From Heliomicrobium modesticaldum Ice1 (lineage in GTDB: Bacteria; Bacillota; Desulfitobacteriia; Heliobacteriales; Heliobacteriaceae), in the NCBI RefSeq assembly GCF_000019165.1, contig NC_010337.2:785501-849500 (forward strand): DNA of 64,000 nucleotides, in the 5' to 3' direction. The notes under the pieces are model-generated. The model ran no database searches, was not told the DNA's origin, and saw nothing but the letters and a program-made list of their open reading frames with translations. The position numbers and the translations under genes are program-made. Shown one piece after another: positions 1,874-11,595 of the stretch (within the stretch, counting starts at the first letter, position 1; every line of letters starts with the position of its first letter).

Positions 1874-2806
1874 CTATTGCCATGATCGGGACCAGCGGGC
1901 GACCGTCTGGTCCAGCCCTTGCGGCAGCGCCGTTTTCGGCGTCCAACCTACCGCATCCTTGAGTCGCCTGTTGTCCAGATAGCTATGCAGAATGTCACCG
2001 GGACGGGCAGGCGCCATTTGAGCAGCCAAGTCAACGCCGACCCGTTCGCGGATCAGCGCAAACAGCGCCTTGACGCTGGTCCCGCGCCCTGTGCTGACGT
2101 TGTACACGGAATGTCTCAGCTGTTCTGTTTCCGCTTCCAACACCAGCAGCATGGCGTCGACCACATCGTCTACATACACGAAATCGCGCGTTTGCTCCCC
2201 GTCACCGTAGATCACAGGAGCGATGCCCCGCAGGAGCCGCTCCGTGAAGATCGCCACCACCCCGCCTTCTCCTGCGGCATCCTGGCGGGGGCCGTAGACA
2301 TTGGCAAAGCGCAGCGCCACGCCAGTGATCCCGTATAATTCCCGGTAGAGTTGCAGATAATGTTCAGGCGTATGCTTGCTGATCCCGTAGGGATTGGCCG
2401 GCGCCAGCCGGTGCTCTTCGTCAACAGGGAGCCGCAGCGGATCGCCGTAAACAGCCGCTGACGAAGCGACGATCATCCGCTTGACGCCGCTCTGTCGGCA
2501 GGCTTCCAGCAGGTTGAGCGTTCCTAGGATATTTGTTCTCGCGTCATGCAGGGGATCCCGCAGGGAAACCTGCACATCTACCTGAGCGGCCAGATGGATG
2601 ATCGCCTCAGGGGCCTCCCTGGCGATGACCCCTTTGATCTCATCATCGGCCACATCGAGATGGAAAAAGGCCGCTTTCTCCGGAATGTTTTCTCGCTTTC
2701 CCGTCGAGAGGTCATCGACCACCAGAACCTCGTCACCCCGGGCGATACACCGTTCGACCACATGGGATCCGATGAACCCGGCGCCACCGGTGACTAGCAA
2801 CTTCAA
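1874..2806 (-). CDS. NAD-dependent UDP-glucose 4-epimerase-like protein
   Basis: Extended short-chain dehydrogenase/reductase, about 310 residues. It begins with the Rossmann motif GGAGFIGSH, carries the catalytic YGISK (Y-x3-K) with SSAAVYG before it, and ends with the usual substrate domain, as in GalE-type UDP-hexose 4-epimerases. It would supply UDP-galactose, UDP-GalNAc or a uronic acid for the polysaccharide genes around it. The start is a choice: I use the TTG at 2806 (MKLLVTGGAGF), which gives the family's normal N terminus and has GGGCGG about 9 nt upstream; an ATG at 2842 is possible but has no clear ribosome binding site. The upstream spacer is a 23-bp repeat array. Confidence 0.88.
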   Translation of the reverse strand: MKLLVTGGAGFIGSHVVERCIARGDEVLVVDDLSTGKRENIPEKAAFFHLDVADDEIKGVIAREAPEAIIHLAAQVDVQVSLRDPLHDARTNILGTLNLLEACRQSGVKRMIVASSAAVYGDPLRLPVDEEHRLAPANPYGISKHTPEHYLQLYRELYGITGVALRFANVYGPRQDAAGEGGVVAIFTERLLRGIAPVIYGDGEQTRDFVYVDDVVDAMLLVLEAETEQLRHSVYNVSTGRGTSVKALFALIRERVGVDLAAQMAPARPGDILHSYLDNRRLKDAVGWTPKTALPQGLDQTVARWSRSWQ

Positions 2807-2861
2807 CGGCGATACCGCCCTTTCGGTGAAAAATACTGCCATGCTTTTTTCATCAGCCGCT

Positions 2862-3075
2862 GCTTGACTGAAGCAGGAGCAACTGCTTGACCGATACCGA
2901 AGCCGCCGCTCGACCGATACCAGTGCCGCCGCTTGACCGGTACCAGTGCCGCCGCTTGACCGATACCGAAGCAGCTACTCAACCGATACCGAAACCGCTG
3001 CTTGACCGGTACCGAAACCGCCGCTTAACCGGTACCGAAACCGCCGCTTGACCGATACCAGTGCCGCTACTTGAC
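2862..3075. repeat. Intergenic 23-bp tandem repeat array
   Basis: About nine degenerate 23-bp units (for example CGATACCAGTGCCGCCGCTT plus GAC) fill the spacer between the SH3b-protein stop codon and the epimerase start. Variants alternate GATACC/GGTACC and CAGTGCC/CGAAACC. On the minus strand the first unit is the end of the SH3b gene itself: CTGGTTTCAGTCAAGTAG (codons LVSVK and the stop) aligns with CTGGTATCGGTCAAGCGG in the next unit. The array ends just before the epimerase translation start. Confidence 0.93.
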
Positions 3076-3927
3076 TGAAACCAGGTCCTGACGGACAAAA
3101 CCTTCACGACCGTCAGGTATCTTTACTTTGTACCATTTTTCCGCTTGCGAAACCCCGTCGATCGACGCCAGGATGGTGACCCGAGCGCCGCTCGGGAGGA
3201 TGGTGACGACAGTGTAATCCGTCCCCGGCCCAAAGCGAACATTGACACCTGTGGTGGAAGCGATTGTGCCTTCCCGTAACCCCGCAGTGGATACCGCCGC
3301 AAGCGCGGCCGTTGTCTCGGCAATCGCCGGCGCGCCTTTTGAACCGCTTTGATTGCCGCCGGCAACGGGGATAGAGGCGGAAGCGCCGGTCACATCGTCG
3401 ACATTCCAGGGGGTGTTTTGGAATCCTTGAGGCATCGGCGGAAGTTCCACCTTTTGTCCCGATTGCTCCAGCGCCCGCTGCAGCGCCTCGACCCGTCGAT
3501 TCAGGGCAACGATCTGGTTATGTAGTTCAGCCCTGTTTCCCCAGAGCAGCTTCTCCAGGTAGCTTTTCGACACAAGGGGATCTTCGGCCGTCCCGGGCGA
3601 AGCGGCGCCGGCCAAAACAACCTGGCCAAGGACGAATCCTGACAGCAGGAAGGCCAGCCCTCCACCGGCGAGTCGAAGCCAAAGACGAAAGCGGGGTGCC
3701 CTTGCCGGTCGACTCAACAGAGCCATCCGTTCCTCCTGAGTGACACCCGAATATCCCGCCTCCGAAAGCGGGTCTATCGCCGGCGCGACATCGCTGACCG
3801 GCGACGTTCCACCCGAATGGCCCCTCTTCGAAAGCCCTTTTTCATCTACCACTTTTTCATCTACCACTTTTTCATCCACCACTTTTTCATCCACCACTTT
3901 TTCATCCACCACTTTTTCATCCACCAT
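3067..3927 (-). CDS. Membrane-anchored protein with C-terminal SH3b domain
   Basis: About 286 residues in four parts: an N-terminal acidic/basic stretch of six VDEKV pentapeptides; a cytoplasmic linker; one membrane segment (LAGGGLAFLLSGFVLGQVVL); then a short coiled coil (LHNQIVALNRRVEALQRALE) and a C-terminal bacterial SH3 domain (GVNVRFGPGTDYTVVTILPS to GFVRQDL). SH3b domains bind peptidoglycan or other wall polymers, so the protein probably links membrane and wall. I start it at the ATG at 3925-3927 with AGGA 7 nt upstream; a TTG at 3945 would extend it. The pentapeptide repeat is also a 15-bp DNA repeat. The last codons seed the following 23-bp array. Confidence 0.82.
   Translation of the reverse strand: MVDEKVVDEKVVDEKVVDEKVVDEKVVDEKGLSKRGHSGGTSPVSDVAPAIDPLSEAGYSGVTQEERMALLSRPARAPRFRLWLRLAGGGLAFLLSGFVLGQVVLAGAASPGTAEDPLVSKSYLEKLLWGNRAELHNQIVALNRRVEALQRALEQSGQKVELPPMPQGFQNTPWNVDDVTGASASIPVAGGNQSGSKGAPAIAETTAALAAVSTAGLREGTIASTTGVNVRFGPGTDYTVVTILPSGARVTILASIDGVSQAEKWYKVKIPDGREGFVRQDLVSVK
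3838..3925. repeat. 15-bp in-frame repeat coding VDEKV
   Basis: Six near-identical 15-bp units (TTTTTCATCCACCAC on the plus strand) at the very 5' end of the SH3b gene, each coding VDEKV. Units differ by a single C/T change, which points to recent expansion by slippage. Confidence 0.9.
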
Positions 3928-3941
3928 AAGTGTCCTGGTTT

Positions 3942-3978
3942 CCAAAACCGTAACAAAGTGACTTTATTACGGTTTTGG
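3942..3978. promoter_or_regulatory. 37-bp near-perfect palindrome
   Basis: CCAAAACCGTAA at 3942-3953 is the exact reverse complement of TTACGGTTTTGG at 3967-3978, and the interior continues the symmetry as AAAGT-G-ACTTT, with one mismatched pair. It lies between the SH3b gene and the tnpB remnant. It could be an operator for the SH3b gene, a terminator stem, or a hairpin belonging to the transposon end; the sequence alone does not decide. Confidence 0.7.
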
Positions 3979-4186
3979 CACGCTGGCGACTACCTCAGCG
4001 TGGGAAATCTCACAGGATTCGATTTCCTCGGATACAAGCCATCACTTGTACGCCATAGGCTGTTATCACCGCCTCCCCTAGCAAAGATAGGGAAGTCCAC
4101 CACAGCGAGGGGTGTTACCCCTTCCGTAAGGTTCACCGTCGTCTTCGCCTTTCACCGCCTGTACGAAGACGATTATGTACATTACG
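3979..4186 (-). ncRNA. Candidate TnpB-associated omega RNA region
   Basis: Downstream of the tnpB remnant, on the same strand, a run of short hairpins follows in close succession: 3979-4002 (CACGCTG/CAGCGTG), 4003-4027 (GGAAATC/GATTTCC), 4033-4050 (TACAAG/CTTGTA), 4076-4092 (CCCTA/TAGGG) and 4109-4121 (GGGGT/ACCCC). No open frame is conserved. In IS200/IS605 and IS607 elements this position encodes the omega (reRNA) guide RNA that starts within or just after tnpB and runs to the element's right end. The link to omega RNA is an inference from position and structure; the guide boundary cannot be fixed here. Confidence 0.45.
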
Positions 4187-4732
4187 CTACAAGTTCGAGG
4201 TTAGTCCGAGGATCTCTTTCCGGTGTGACCGCCAAAACTCAGGTGTTACACTTCCTTTCGTGATGATTTTCGCTTCTTTTTCGCTCCGCTGATGGATCAT
4301 GGCCCATCGTTTCCATTCGGTAGACGGACTTTTCGTCGGAAGGAGTTTTTCCCGCAAGAGCCTCGGGACTTTTTCTTTCATCCCATAGGCCCTTCGGGCA
4401 ATGACCAGGGCCGCGCCGTGGTGAACGTCCAGACCATACTGGTGGGTATACTTGTACAAGCCGATCTTCGACGTAAAGGCGGGCTTCACTTTCGTATACT
4501 CAATCCCGTTTCGGATACAGGCCCTTTCCAGCATCGTGAGCATTTGGCGATAGATGAAGTTGTGCCGGATGCGCGAGAATTTACGCCAGGTATCTTGGTC
4601 GTGTTAGAACTTCAAGTCCTCAAAGGCCACGCCGCATTGGCGATCCTTCGCGTATTGAATGACTTCCTTGACCATCTCGCCAATCAGATTTTCTCGTCGA
4701 TTGGCATTAAGAAGAGCCGGCGGCTTCCGCCA
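4187..4732 (-). pseudogene. tnpB: TnpB (IS200/IS605-type) remnant
   Basis: C-terminal part of an RNA-guided TnpB nuclease. Readable motifs: GVAFEDLKF (the RuvC-II glutamate), then after an in-frame TAA at 4604-4606 the same frame continues HDQDTWRKFSRIRHNFIYRQ, KPAFTSKIGLYKY and DVHHGAALVIARRAYG (the RuvC-III aspartate with the usual A-x2-IA-R tail). The N-terminal half, including the first RuvC aspartate, is missing; the 5' side abuts the 3' end of the wecA-like gene at 4749. No tnpA and no zinc-finger cysteine cluster are seen. With a stop and a 5' truncation this copy should make no active nuclease. Confidence 0.85.
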
Positions 4733-4748
4733 GGGCCCCGCCAACGGA

Positions 4749-6447: not shown

Positions 6448-6472
6448 AAATCTTCCTTTCTTCTTTCGATAC

Positions 6473-6756
6473 CCGGTTCTGATGTTCAGTTCTGATACTC
6501 AGTTCTGATGCCCGTTCCGATGCCCGTTCCGATGCCCCGTTCCGATGCCCCGTTCCGACGCCCCGTTCTGATGCCCCGTTCCGATGCCCCGTTCCGACGC
6601 CCCGTTCCGATGCCCGTTCCGATGCCCCGTTCCGATGCCCGTTCCGATGCCCCGTTCCGATGCCCCGTTCCGACGCCCCGTTCCGATGCCCCGTTCCGAT
6701 GCCCCGTTCCGATGCCCCGTTCCGATGCCCCGTTCCGATGCCCGTTCCGATGATCG
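6473..6756. repeat. 12/13-bp tandem repeat array between divergent genes
   Basis: About twenty units of GTTCCGATGCCC(C), alternating 12 and 13 bp, with GAC and CTG variants, fill most of the gap between fabZ (minus) and the DUF4330 gene (plus). The mixed unit length keeps several frames open on both strands, giving spurious arginine/proline and glycine/threonine rich reading frames. Unlike the other arrays this one follows no gene end; it lies between two gene starts. Confidence 0.93.
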
Positions 6757-6929: not shown

Positions 6930-7418
6930 ATGAAACTGGTCAACGAAAAAGGTCGGCTCTTTGGATTGATCAATCCGCTGGATCTGCTGATCCTGCTGGC
7001 CGTCATCGCCCTTGTCGCCGGTCTGGCGACAAAGACCAACACCATCGTCCAGACGACAGAAACACCCGTCCAGTTCGAGGTTGTCCTGAAGCGGGTGCTG
7101 CCCGAGGTGGCCGCCAACTTGGACCCGAAAGAAGCGCTCGTAGGCGGCGGGTCGATTCTCGATCCCCAAGATGTACGAGTCGAATCCCTCCAGGTGGTCC
7201 CCTGCCGCCAATCACAGCCCAATGACCAGGGGCAACTGATCCTCACCGATGATCCCTATTTAAAAGACGTCCACCTCGTCATCCGCGGCGTCTCCCGCTC
7301 GGCCACAGCAGATCTGCGCGTCGGCAATCAAGAGATCAAGGCAGGGAAAGAATACTACTACAAGACCCAGAAGACGCAACTGATCGGCACCGTCACCAAG
7401 GTCAGCGTGCTGAAATAA
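6930..7418 (+). CDS. DUF4330 family membrane-anchored protein
   Basis: 162 residues. The N terminus MKLVNEKGRLFGLINPLDLL followed by a membrane helix (LILLAVIALVAGLAT) and an extracytoplasmic domain is the pattern of DUF4330, a family found beside polysaccharide export and glycosyltransferase genes in Clostridia; its biochemical role is unknown to me. The ATG at 6930 is chosen because GGAGGAGG lies 8-9 nt upstream; longer upstream reading runs into the repeat array and is not real. Its final codons GTG CTG AAA TAA are copied in the 12-bp repeat directly after it. Confidence 0.85.
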   Translation: MKLVNEKGRLFGLINPLDLLILLAVIALVAGLATKTNTIVQTTETPVQFEVVLKRVLPEVAANLDPKEALVGGGSILDPQDVRVESLQVVPCRQSQPNDQGQLILTDDPYLKDVHLVIRGVSRSATADLRVGNQEIKAGKEYYYKTQKTQLIGTVTKVSVLK

Positions 7419-7722
7419 GTGCTGAAGTAAGTGCGAGATAAGCGCCGGAGTAAGTGCGAGATAAGTGCCGAATTCCTTGCCGATCCGTTCGCCCGATAAT
7501 TCCGACACTCAGCCAACGCCCAGCCGACACCCAGCCGACGCCCGACCGACGCTCAACCGACGCCCGACCGACGCCCGACCGACGCTCAGCCGACACTCAG
7601 CCCATGCCCAGCCGACGCCCAACCGACGCTCAGCCGACGCCCGACCGACGCCCGACCGACGCCCAACCGACGCTCAGCCCACGCCCGGCCGACGCCCAAC
7701 CGACGCCCGACAGTTGTTTAAG
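7407..7722. repeat. Stop-codon-seeded 12-bp repeats and 11-bp tandem array
   Basis: Directly at the end of the DUF4330 gene, GTGCTGAAATAA is repeated as GTGCTGAAGTAA, GTGCGAGATAA, GCGCCGGAGTAA and GTGCGAGATAA up to about 7465. From about 7500 to 7720 a second array follows with an 11-bp unit, CCGACGCCCGA and variants CCGACGCTCAG, about twenty copies. The plus strand is open in more than one frame through this array. No gene is supported here. Confidence 0.93.
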
Positions 7723-11162: not shown

Positions 11163-11540
11163 GTGCCAAAACCATTCCTCGCCTGGGACTCGCTGCTGCT
11201 GATCGCAATCAACATCACCCTGCTCTTAGCCGGTCAGACCTTATGGAAAATCGGGCTGCAAAAGATCGGCGGCTTCAGCCTCGCCCACCTTCCGGCGGCA
11301 GCCTTCTCCCCCTGGATCGTGGCCGGGCTTGTCCTGTATGTCATCGCCACCGGCGTCTGGTTTCTCATCCTCTCCCGGATAGACTTCAGCCTGGCCTATC
11401 CGCTCCAGAGCCTCGCCTTCGTCTTCGGCGTCTTCCTGGGTTGGCTGGTTTTTCAAGAAACCATCCCCTGGACGCGCTGGGTCGGCGTCGCCGTCATCAT
11501 CTTCGGCGTCTATCTGGTAGCGCTGCCGGTGAGGCAGTGA
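11163..11540 (+). CDS. EmrE/ArnE-like four-helix transporter
   Basis: 125 residues with four membrane helices, of the drug/metabolite transporter superfamily (SMR/EamA type). The pattern LLLAGQTLWKIGLQKIGGF at the N terminus, SRIDFSLAYPLQSLAFVFG in helix 3 and GVAVIIFGVYLV in helix 4 resembles ArnE/ArnF-type flippase subunits and short SMR proteins. Next to an O-antigen ligase and glycosyltransferases, flipping of a lipid-linked sugar is a reasonable guess, but drug export cannot be excluded. The start is GTG at 11163, with GGGAGG 8 nt upstream. Its last codons (GAGGCAGTGA) open a 13-bp repeat. Confidence 0.8.
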   Translation: MPKPFLAWDSLLLIAINITLLLAGQTLWKIGLQKIGGFSLAHLPAAAFSPWIVAGLVLYVIATGVWFLILSRIDFSLAYPLQSLAFVFGVFLGWLVFQETIPWTRWVGVAVIIFGVYLVALPVRQ

Positions 11541-11595
11541 TATGAAGCAGTGATATGAGGCAGTGATATGAGGCAGTGATATGAGGCAGTGATAC
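11530..11595. repeat. 13-bp repeat seeded by a gene end
   Basis: GAGGCAGTGATAT, made of the last two codons and the stop of the EmrE-like gene plus four bases, is repeated four to five times (TGATATGAAGCAG, TGATATGAGGCAG, three identical copies, then a broken one). Confidence 0.93.

Follow-up and report, generated by a model that had tools for sequence, protein, structure and literature searches.

A 23-bp intergenic tandem array in Heliomicrobium modesticaldum that probably grew from the 3′ end of an SH3b gene

The window, that is, the whole stretch of 64,000 nucleotides analysed here, corresponds to bases 785501-849500 of the 3,075,407-bp single-contig genome of the photosynthetic bacterium Heliomicrobium modesticaldum Ice1. 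It carries an SH3b gene followed on the same strand by a gene of the NAD-dependent epimerase family, the two probably being co-transcribed, and between them lies a tandem array of ten 23-bp units (Table 1). The first-listed start of the SH3b ORF is a TTG at 3945, and a scan of genome contigs for more SH3b relatives gave one distant match only. For the epimerase gene an ATG at 2842 is an alternative start, although the start context GAAAGGGCGGTA...TTGAAGTTG is kept in the congeners, which supports the TTG at 2806. On the 5′ side of the SH3b gene, the spacer (window 3946-4748) measures 821 bp against 144 and 225 bp in the congeners, and the ORF fragments within it read like a decayed transposase, two of these pieces having been tested against Pfam with no match.

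Table 1. Positions of the array, its units and the neighbouring genes, and of other arrays at gene ends and at the SH3b gene start (window coordinates, unless given in kb)
Feature	Position	Strand	Description
Epimerase gene (NAD-dependent epimerase family), 3′ of SH3b	1874..2806	-	likely TTG start at 2806
SH3b gene, source of the 23-bp unit (probable)	3067..3927	-	protein with a bacterial SH3 domain (Pfam SH3_3, E 1.2e-13)
23-bp tandem array, ten units	2855..3084	-	strict register, no indels
Unit 1	3062..3084	-	last five SH3b codons (Leu-Val-Ser-Val-Lys), TAG and 5 bp
Eight inner units (2-9)	2878..3061	-	derived variant GGTAYCGG in common
Last unit (10)	2855..2877	-	keeps the gene-end variant TTCAGTCAAG, then runs into GGCTGATGAAAAAA
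In-frame 15-bp array (VDEKV), six units, SH3b gene start	3837..3926	-	directly 3′ of the start codon
Gene-end array, DUF4330 gene (6930-7418)	7407..7472	+	VLK* end (GTGCTGAAATAA)
Gene-end array, EamA-family gene (11163-11540)	11530..11594	+	13-bp TGAGGCAGTGATA, five units, VRQ* end
Gene-end array, pyrG	915.8 kb (outside window)		38 bp, six units; congener gene end single-copy
Gene-end array, membrane protein gene (presumably DUF421-type)	934.4 kb		26 bp, two units; congener gene end single-copy

Read from 3084 down to 2855, the array is 230 bp long; the initial annotation, which had placed it at 2862-3084, had identified a real array and slightly clipped its last unit. Its description of the first unit as the last codons and the stop of the SH3b gene was accurate, since unit 1, CTGGTTTCAGTCAAGTAGCGGCA, that is, CTGGTTTCAGTCAAGTAG followed by CGGCA, contains the codons CTG GTT TCA GTC AAG TAG, with the stop at 3069-3067. 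That the array runs up to the start of the next gene holds only roughly, its edge being 48 bp from the likely TTG and 12 bp from the alternative ATG, and the proposed closeness of the period to two 11-bp units is not borne out, the match at lag 11/12 being 0.36 (P ~0.05 against unit-permuted controls), with higher values at lags 6 and 17. The TRF score of the array is 207-256, whereas in shuffled genome sequence no array reached a TRF score of 60. The repetition is imperfect, with a mean column identity of 83% and a pairwise unit identity of 13-21 of 23; unit 2, CTGGTATCGGTCAAGCGGCGGTT, is identical to unit 1 at 17/23 positions, and the inner units differ from their consensus by 25 transitions and 4 transversions. 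At the position of the stop, units 1 to 10 have TAG, CGG, CGG, CAG, TAG, CGG, CGG, CGG, CAG and CAG.

The distribution of variants along the array is informative about its direction of growth. The motif TTCAGTCAAG is common to the gene end, to unit 1 and to the last unit, with the derived form GGTAYCGG inside, which is the pattern expected where the edge units escape homogenisation; moreover, the sequence GGCTGATGAAAAAA that follows the last unit resembles CGCTGACGAAAAAA, found just past the single copy in one of the congeners (G001). Unit 1 agrees with the inner-unit consensus at 16/23 positions, and 16/23 is also the best value, at any rotation, among 1,030 sampled called gene ends, SH3b's own end among them, whereas none of the 1,030 in this sample reached 17/23.

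The gene end can be followed in the related genomes. In the congener G002 the SH3b gene ends in DLVSVK* (CTCGTTTCGGTCAAATAG), with TAG at the same codon, and unique sequence follows; in G001 it ends in DLVSTSR*; each has one copy and no array, which amounts, with one genome per species, to ten units against one. The farther members of the family end in DLVTLKN*, DLVTLKK*, DLVSFR* or DLLAMP*, all without the array, and hence the combination in which the initial annotation saw the test of a gene-end origin, a different ortholog end together with the same array, was not encountered, orthologs ending alike (DLVSVK*, DLVSTSR*, DLVTLKN*, DLVSFR*) and lacking it. In G001 the empty site is near-flush: the flank alignments meet and overlap by 3 bp, where H. 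modesticaldum has 208 bp between them. In G002 they are 26 bp apart, against 251 bp in H. modesticaldum; the spacer between the called SH3b and epimerase genes is 344 bp in H. modesticaldum, 64 bp in G001 and 45 bp in G002. Given the single-copy gene end in the congeners, and terminal units that carry TTCAGTCAAG around derived inner ones, the gene end is the older of the two, the array having grown out of it; the comparison thus supports the coding sequence of the gene end as the real origin of the 23-bp unit.

We therefore regard the array as an intergenic minisatellite born locally, from the end of the SH3b gene, by tandem duplication followed by expansion under approximate neutrality, a reading to which we assign a probability of roughly 0.86. 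A stretch of 23 bp, consisting of the last five SH3b codons, the TAG and 5 bp of the spacer, would have been duplicated in tandem in the lineage of H. modesticaldum, most likely by slipped-strand mispairing at replication, and further slippage or unequal exchange could have brought the array to ten units. Because the original stop still stands in the first unit, the protein keeps its sequence and the copies can drift, which probably made the event close to neutral. Its main effect is a wider spacer between the two genes, which are probably co-transcribed: 344 bp in place of some 45-64 bp. The congeners differ at the site where the array was born, such that the exact junction cannot be rebuilt, and a possible primer of the slippage, a CTG...CTG pair, is spaced 21 bp, not 23. 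Since units 1 and 10 are identical at only 18/23 positions, the history of the array may also be older or more complex.

Other origins were considered. The array could have a role in the operon, as a structured intercistronic RNA or as a spacer that sets how strongly the epimerase message is expressed or how stable it is, and we consider this unlikely. Its transcript folds to -103 kcal/mol, with a z of -6.3 against dinucleotide shuffles, and the preponderance of transitions among the inner units could keep G-U pairs; however, shuffles destroy the tandem structure, and compared with unit-permuted tandem controls the fold is ordinary (P 0.58), by which RNA structure as a function was rejected. 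The excess of transitions is likewise general (155 against 65 transversions in intergenic arrays, 183 against 71 in coding ones), and the congeners do without the array. Neither a terminator or promoter match nor an Rfam match was obtained for it, and in its sequence we found no sign of function. A decidedly smaller probability attaches to an array ancestral to the genus that was lost from G001 and G002: arrays can collapse, and these are the only two congeners with this locus, but the farther family members also have no 23-bp array, and nearly every other array of the region with alignable flanks also faces a shorter gap in the congeners, so that gain in one lineage is far likelier than loss, which would have to have occurred independently at so many loci.

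About as improbable is the reverse order of events, in which the array would have existed first and a once longer SH3b gene would have received its stop by a nonsense mutation inside the repeat. Most copies do have CGG or CAG in place of the gene's TAG, and at another locus, at 905.8 kb, an array appears to have reshaped a gene end, but in G002, which lacks the array, the same codon is TAG, and a period of 23 bp is not divisible by three and cannot be an in-frame coding repeat. The least probable of all, and one to which we give almost no credence, is that a dispersed or mobile intergenic repeat landed at the gene end and was amplified there, its likeness to the gene end being incidental. MIRU-type elements do insert at gene boundaries (PMC12548453), and the array sits exactly at such a boundary; nevertheless, the whole genome holds seven matches to the unit at up to two mismatches and all seven (7/7) lie inside this one array, 20 relatives yielded scattered single matches, on a par with the reversed-pattern control, and unit 1 is a conserved coding end that is found in a congener without an array.

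The local birth of the array is not an isolated case. The arrays of pyrG, of the membrane protein gene that we take to be DUF421-type, of the EamA-family gene and of the SH3b gene start are all single-copy in the congeners examined and arrays in H. modesticaldum, the EamA-family gene of G001 having the same VRQ* end in one copy, and the 15-bp VDEKV unit being a single copy in both congeners. The SH3b locus had been presented as the clearest of the gene-end arrays, and a clear case it is, but those of pyrG, the DUF421-type gene and the EamA-type gene are as clear or clearer; the DUF4330 gene, whose congeners end differently, is a weaker one. Other intergenic arrays of the window also occupy enlarged spacers: those at 6467-6752 (13/26-bp) and 7516-7708 (11-bp) lie in spacers of 346-488 bp against 3-179 bp in the congeners. 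At 887-1391, between an AbrB-like small gene and a phosphoglucomutase-type gene, there is an 11-bp array of about 45 units, and at this site the congeners have a short spacer with only two separate CCGGATGAAA-like motifs. One of these sits at the gene end, the other ahead of the next start, and the array could have been seeded by them.

A survey of 1.315 Mb (43% of the genome, with deliberately dense sampling around the window) gave 121 arrays, 50 coding and 71 intergenic. The period is divisible by three in 48/50 coding arrays against 27/71 intergenic ones, and the freedom of the latter from a triplet rule is as expected of a neutral process filtered by selection. Ten of the 71 intergenic arrays enter the stop codon of a called gene and none (0/71) a start codon, in-frame arrays at gene starts, which do occur, having been counted as coding. 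Under a null of random placement with a tolerated gene-end overlap of 10, 20 or 30 nt, the expected numbers are 6.0, 8.9 and 11.2 (P 0.04, 0.37 and 0.75), and in an earlier, smaller test 9 were observed against 10.7 expected. With these numbers, any particular attraction of arrays to gene ends is weak at best, and the idea was rejected; gene ends are tolerated and at most mildly favoured as sites, and the gene-end arrays, that of SH3b included, are ordinary minisatellites and no special class.

The abundance of arrays in this part of the genome deserves some comment. Below dnaA (at 1,088,532; the terminus was placed from the skew flip) there are 63 intergenic arrays in 825 kb, against 8 in 490 kb of the other arm, a density about 4.7 times higher (P 1.6e-6), and the difference persists without the hot stretch at 763-951 kb (P 0.0015); in syntenic regions, 28 arrays in 204 kb of H. 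modesticaldum are to be compared with 8 in 231 kb of G001 and 2 in 238 kb of G002 (P 3e-4 and 6e-8, respectively). Both comparisons were made post hoc, with a window inside the hot stretch and congeners that are draft assemblies, and the arm bias and the poverty of arrays in the congeners are leads rather than conclusions. A tentative and somewhat doubtful extension is that a mutational process specific to the left arm, strongest some 140-325 kb from dnaA, keeps making minisatellites from single-copy sequence, gene ends among them, and sometimes rewrites C-termini by duplicating stop codons, which would free the original stop to mutate. A loss of mismatch repair was rejected as the explanation for the abundance, MutS and MutL both being encoded in H. 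modesticaldum. G001, G002 and a further genome, G003, encode a third MutS-domain paralogue of about 670-750 aa, which is missing from H. modesticaldum but also from two other family members, G004 and G005.

A rewritten C-terminus may be seen outside the window, at 905823-906076, in a gene that is presumably DUF2062-like. Its ancestral TAG has become CAG, and the reading frame runs on to QANLEQPARFSVRR*, nine codons later, the congener genes ending in QANLE* (G001) and QTNLE* (G002); the new stop lies inside a 74-bp repeat, the last unit of which keeps the old TAG and the flank of the congeners, and a 45-bp part of the 74-bp unit is absent from the congeners. This arrangement suggests that the array supplied the gene with a new C-terminus.

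Several described systems can be set beside the SH3b array. The MIRU elements of mycobacteria are dispersed and appear mobile (PMC12548453), and share with it the position of short repeats at gene boundaries, but a dispersed repeat has homologous copies at many loci and the 23-bp unit occurs at one locus only. The intergenic direct repeats of TAACTGA type in Beggiatoaceae and others, 14 sets of which overlap the end of the upstream ORF (PMC4679880), are similar in this overlap, although theirs is a 7-mer present at many loci. Borg tandem repeats are locus-unique, recent and independent, and can begin inside the end of an ORF, with partial units at the flanks (PMC9879509); the SH3b array likewise begins in a gene end, and its first and last units have diverged. 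Borg repeats are, however, usually perfect, A-rich and extrachromosomal in archaea, whereas the array described here is on a bacterial chromosome and its units are far from the (almost) perfect identity of Borg ones, with a G-richer sense strand (0.32 against 0.27). Short de novo tandem duplications have been shown directly in a beta-lactamase gene, some of them bounded by direct repeats of 3-8 bp (PMC4169377), but these were selected, in-frame and coding, while the SH3b array lies 3′ of the stop with no visible selection. As for regulatory RNAs, terminators and attenuators, which have structure beyond tandem repetition or match a known family, the array displays neither.

The closest likeness is to the intergenic minisatellites, or VNTRs, of bacteria, with head-to-tail units of roughly 10-100 bp that are locus-specific, imperfect, mostly intergenic and free of a triplet rule in their period, and the 23-bp array, with tandem units in this size range at a single locus, is one of them. 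The origin of such minisatellites is usually guesswork, but at the SH3b locus, as at several sister loci, the step can be seen directly, since a seed that is coding and conserved can be recognised. A gene end is a permissive site for copying, because the stop is retained in the first copy and the protein stays as it was, and arrays at gene ends could therefore serve as natural markers for the place and manner in which tandem duplication begins, besides showing one route to a later new gene tail. What distinguishes this array from other minisatellites is that its origin in a gene end is documented by two empty sites in congeners, the seed, the empty site and the array all being visible together.
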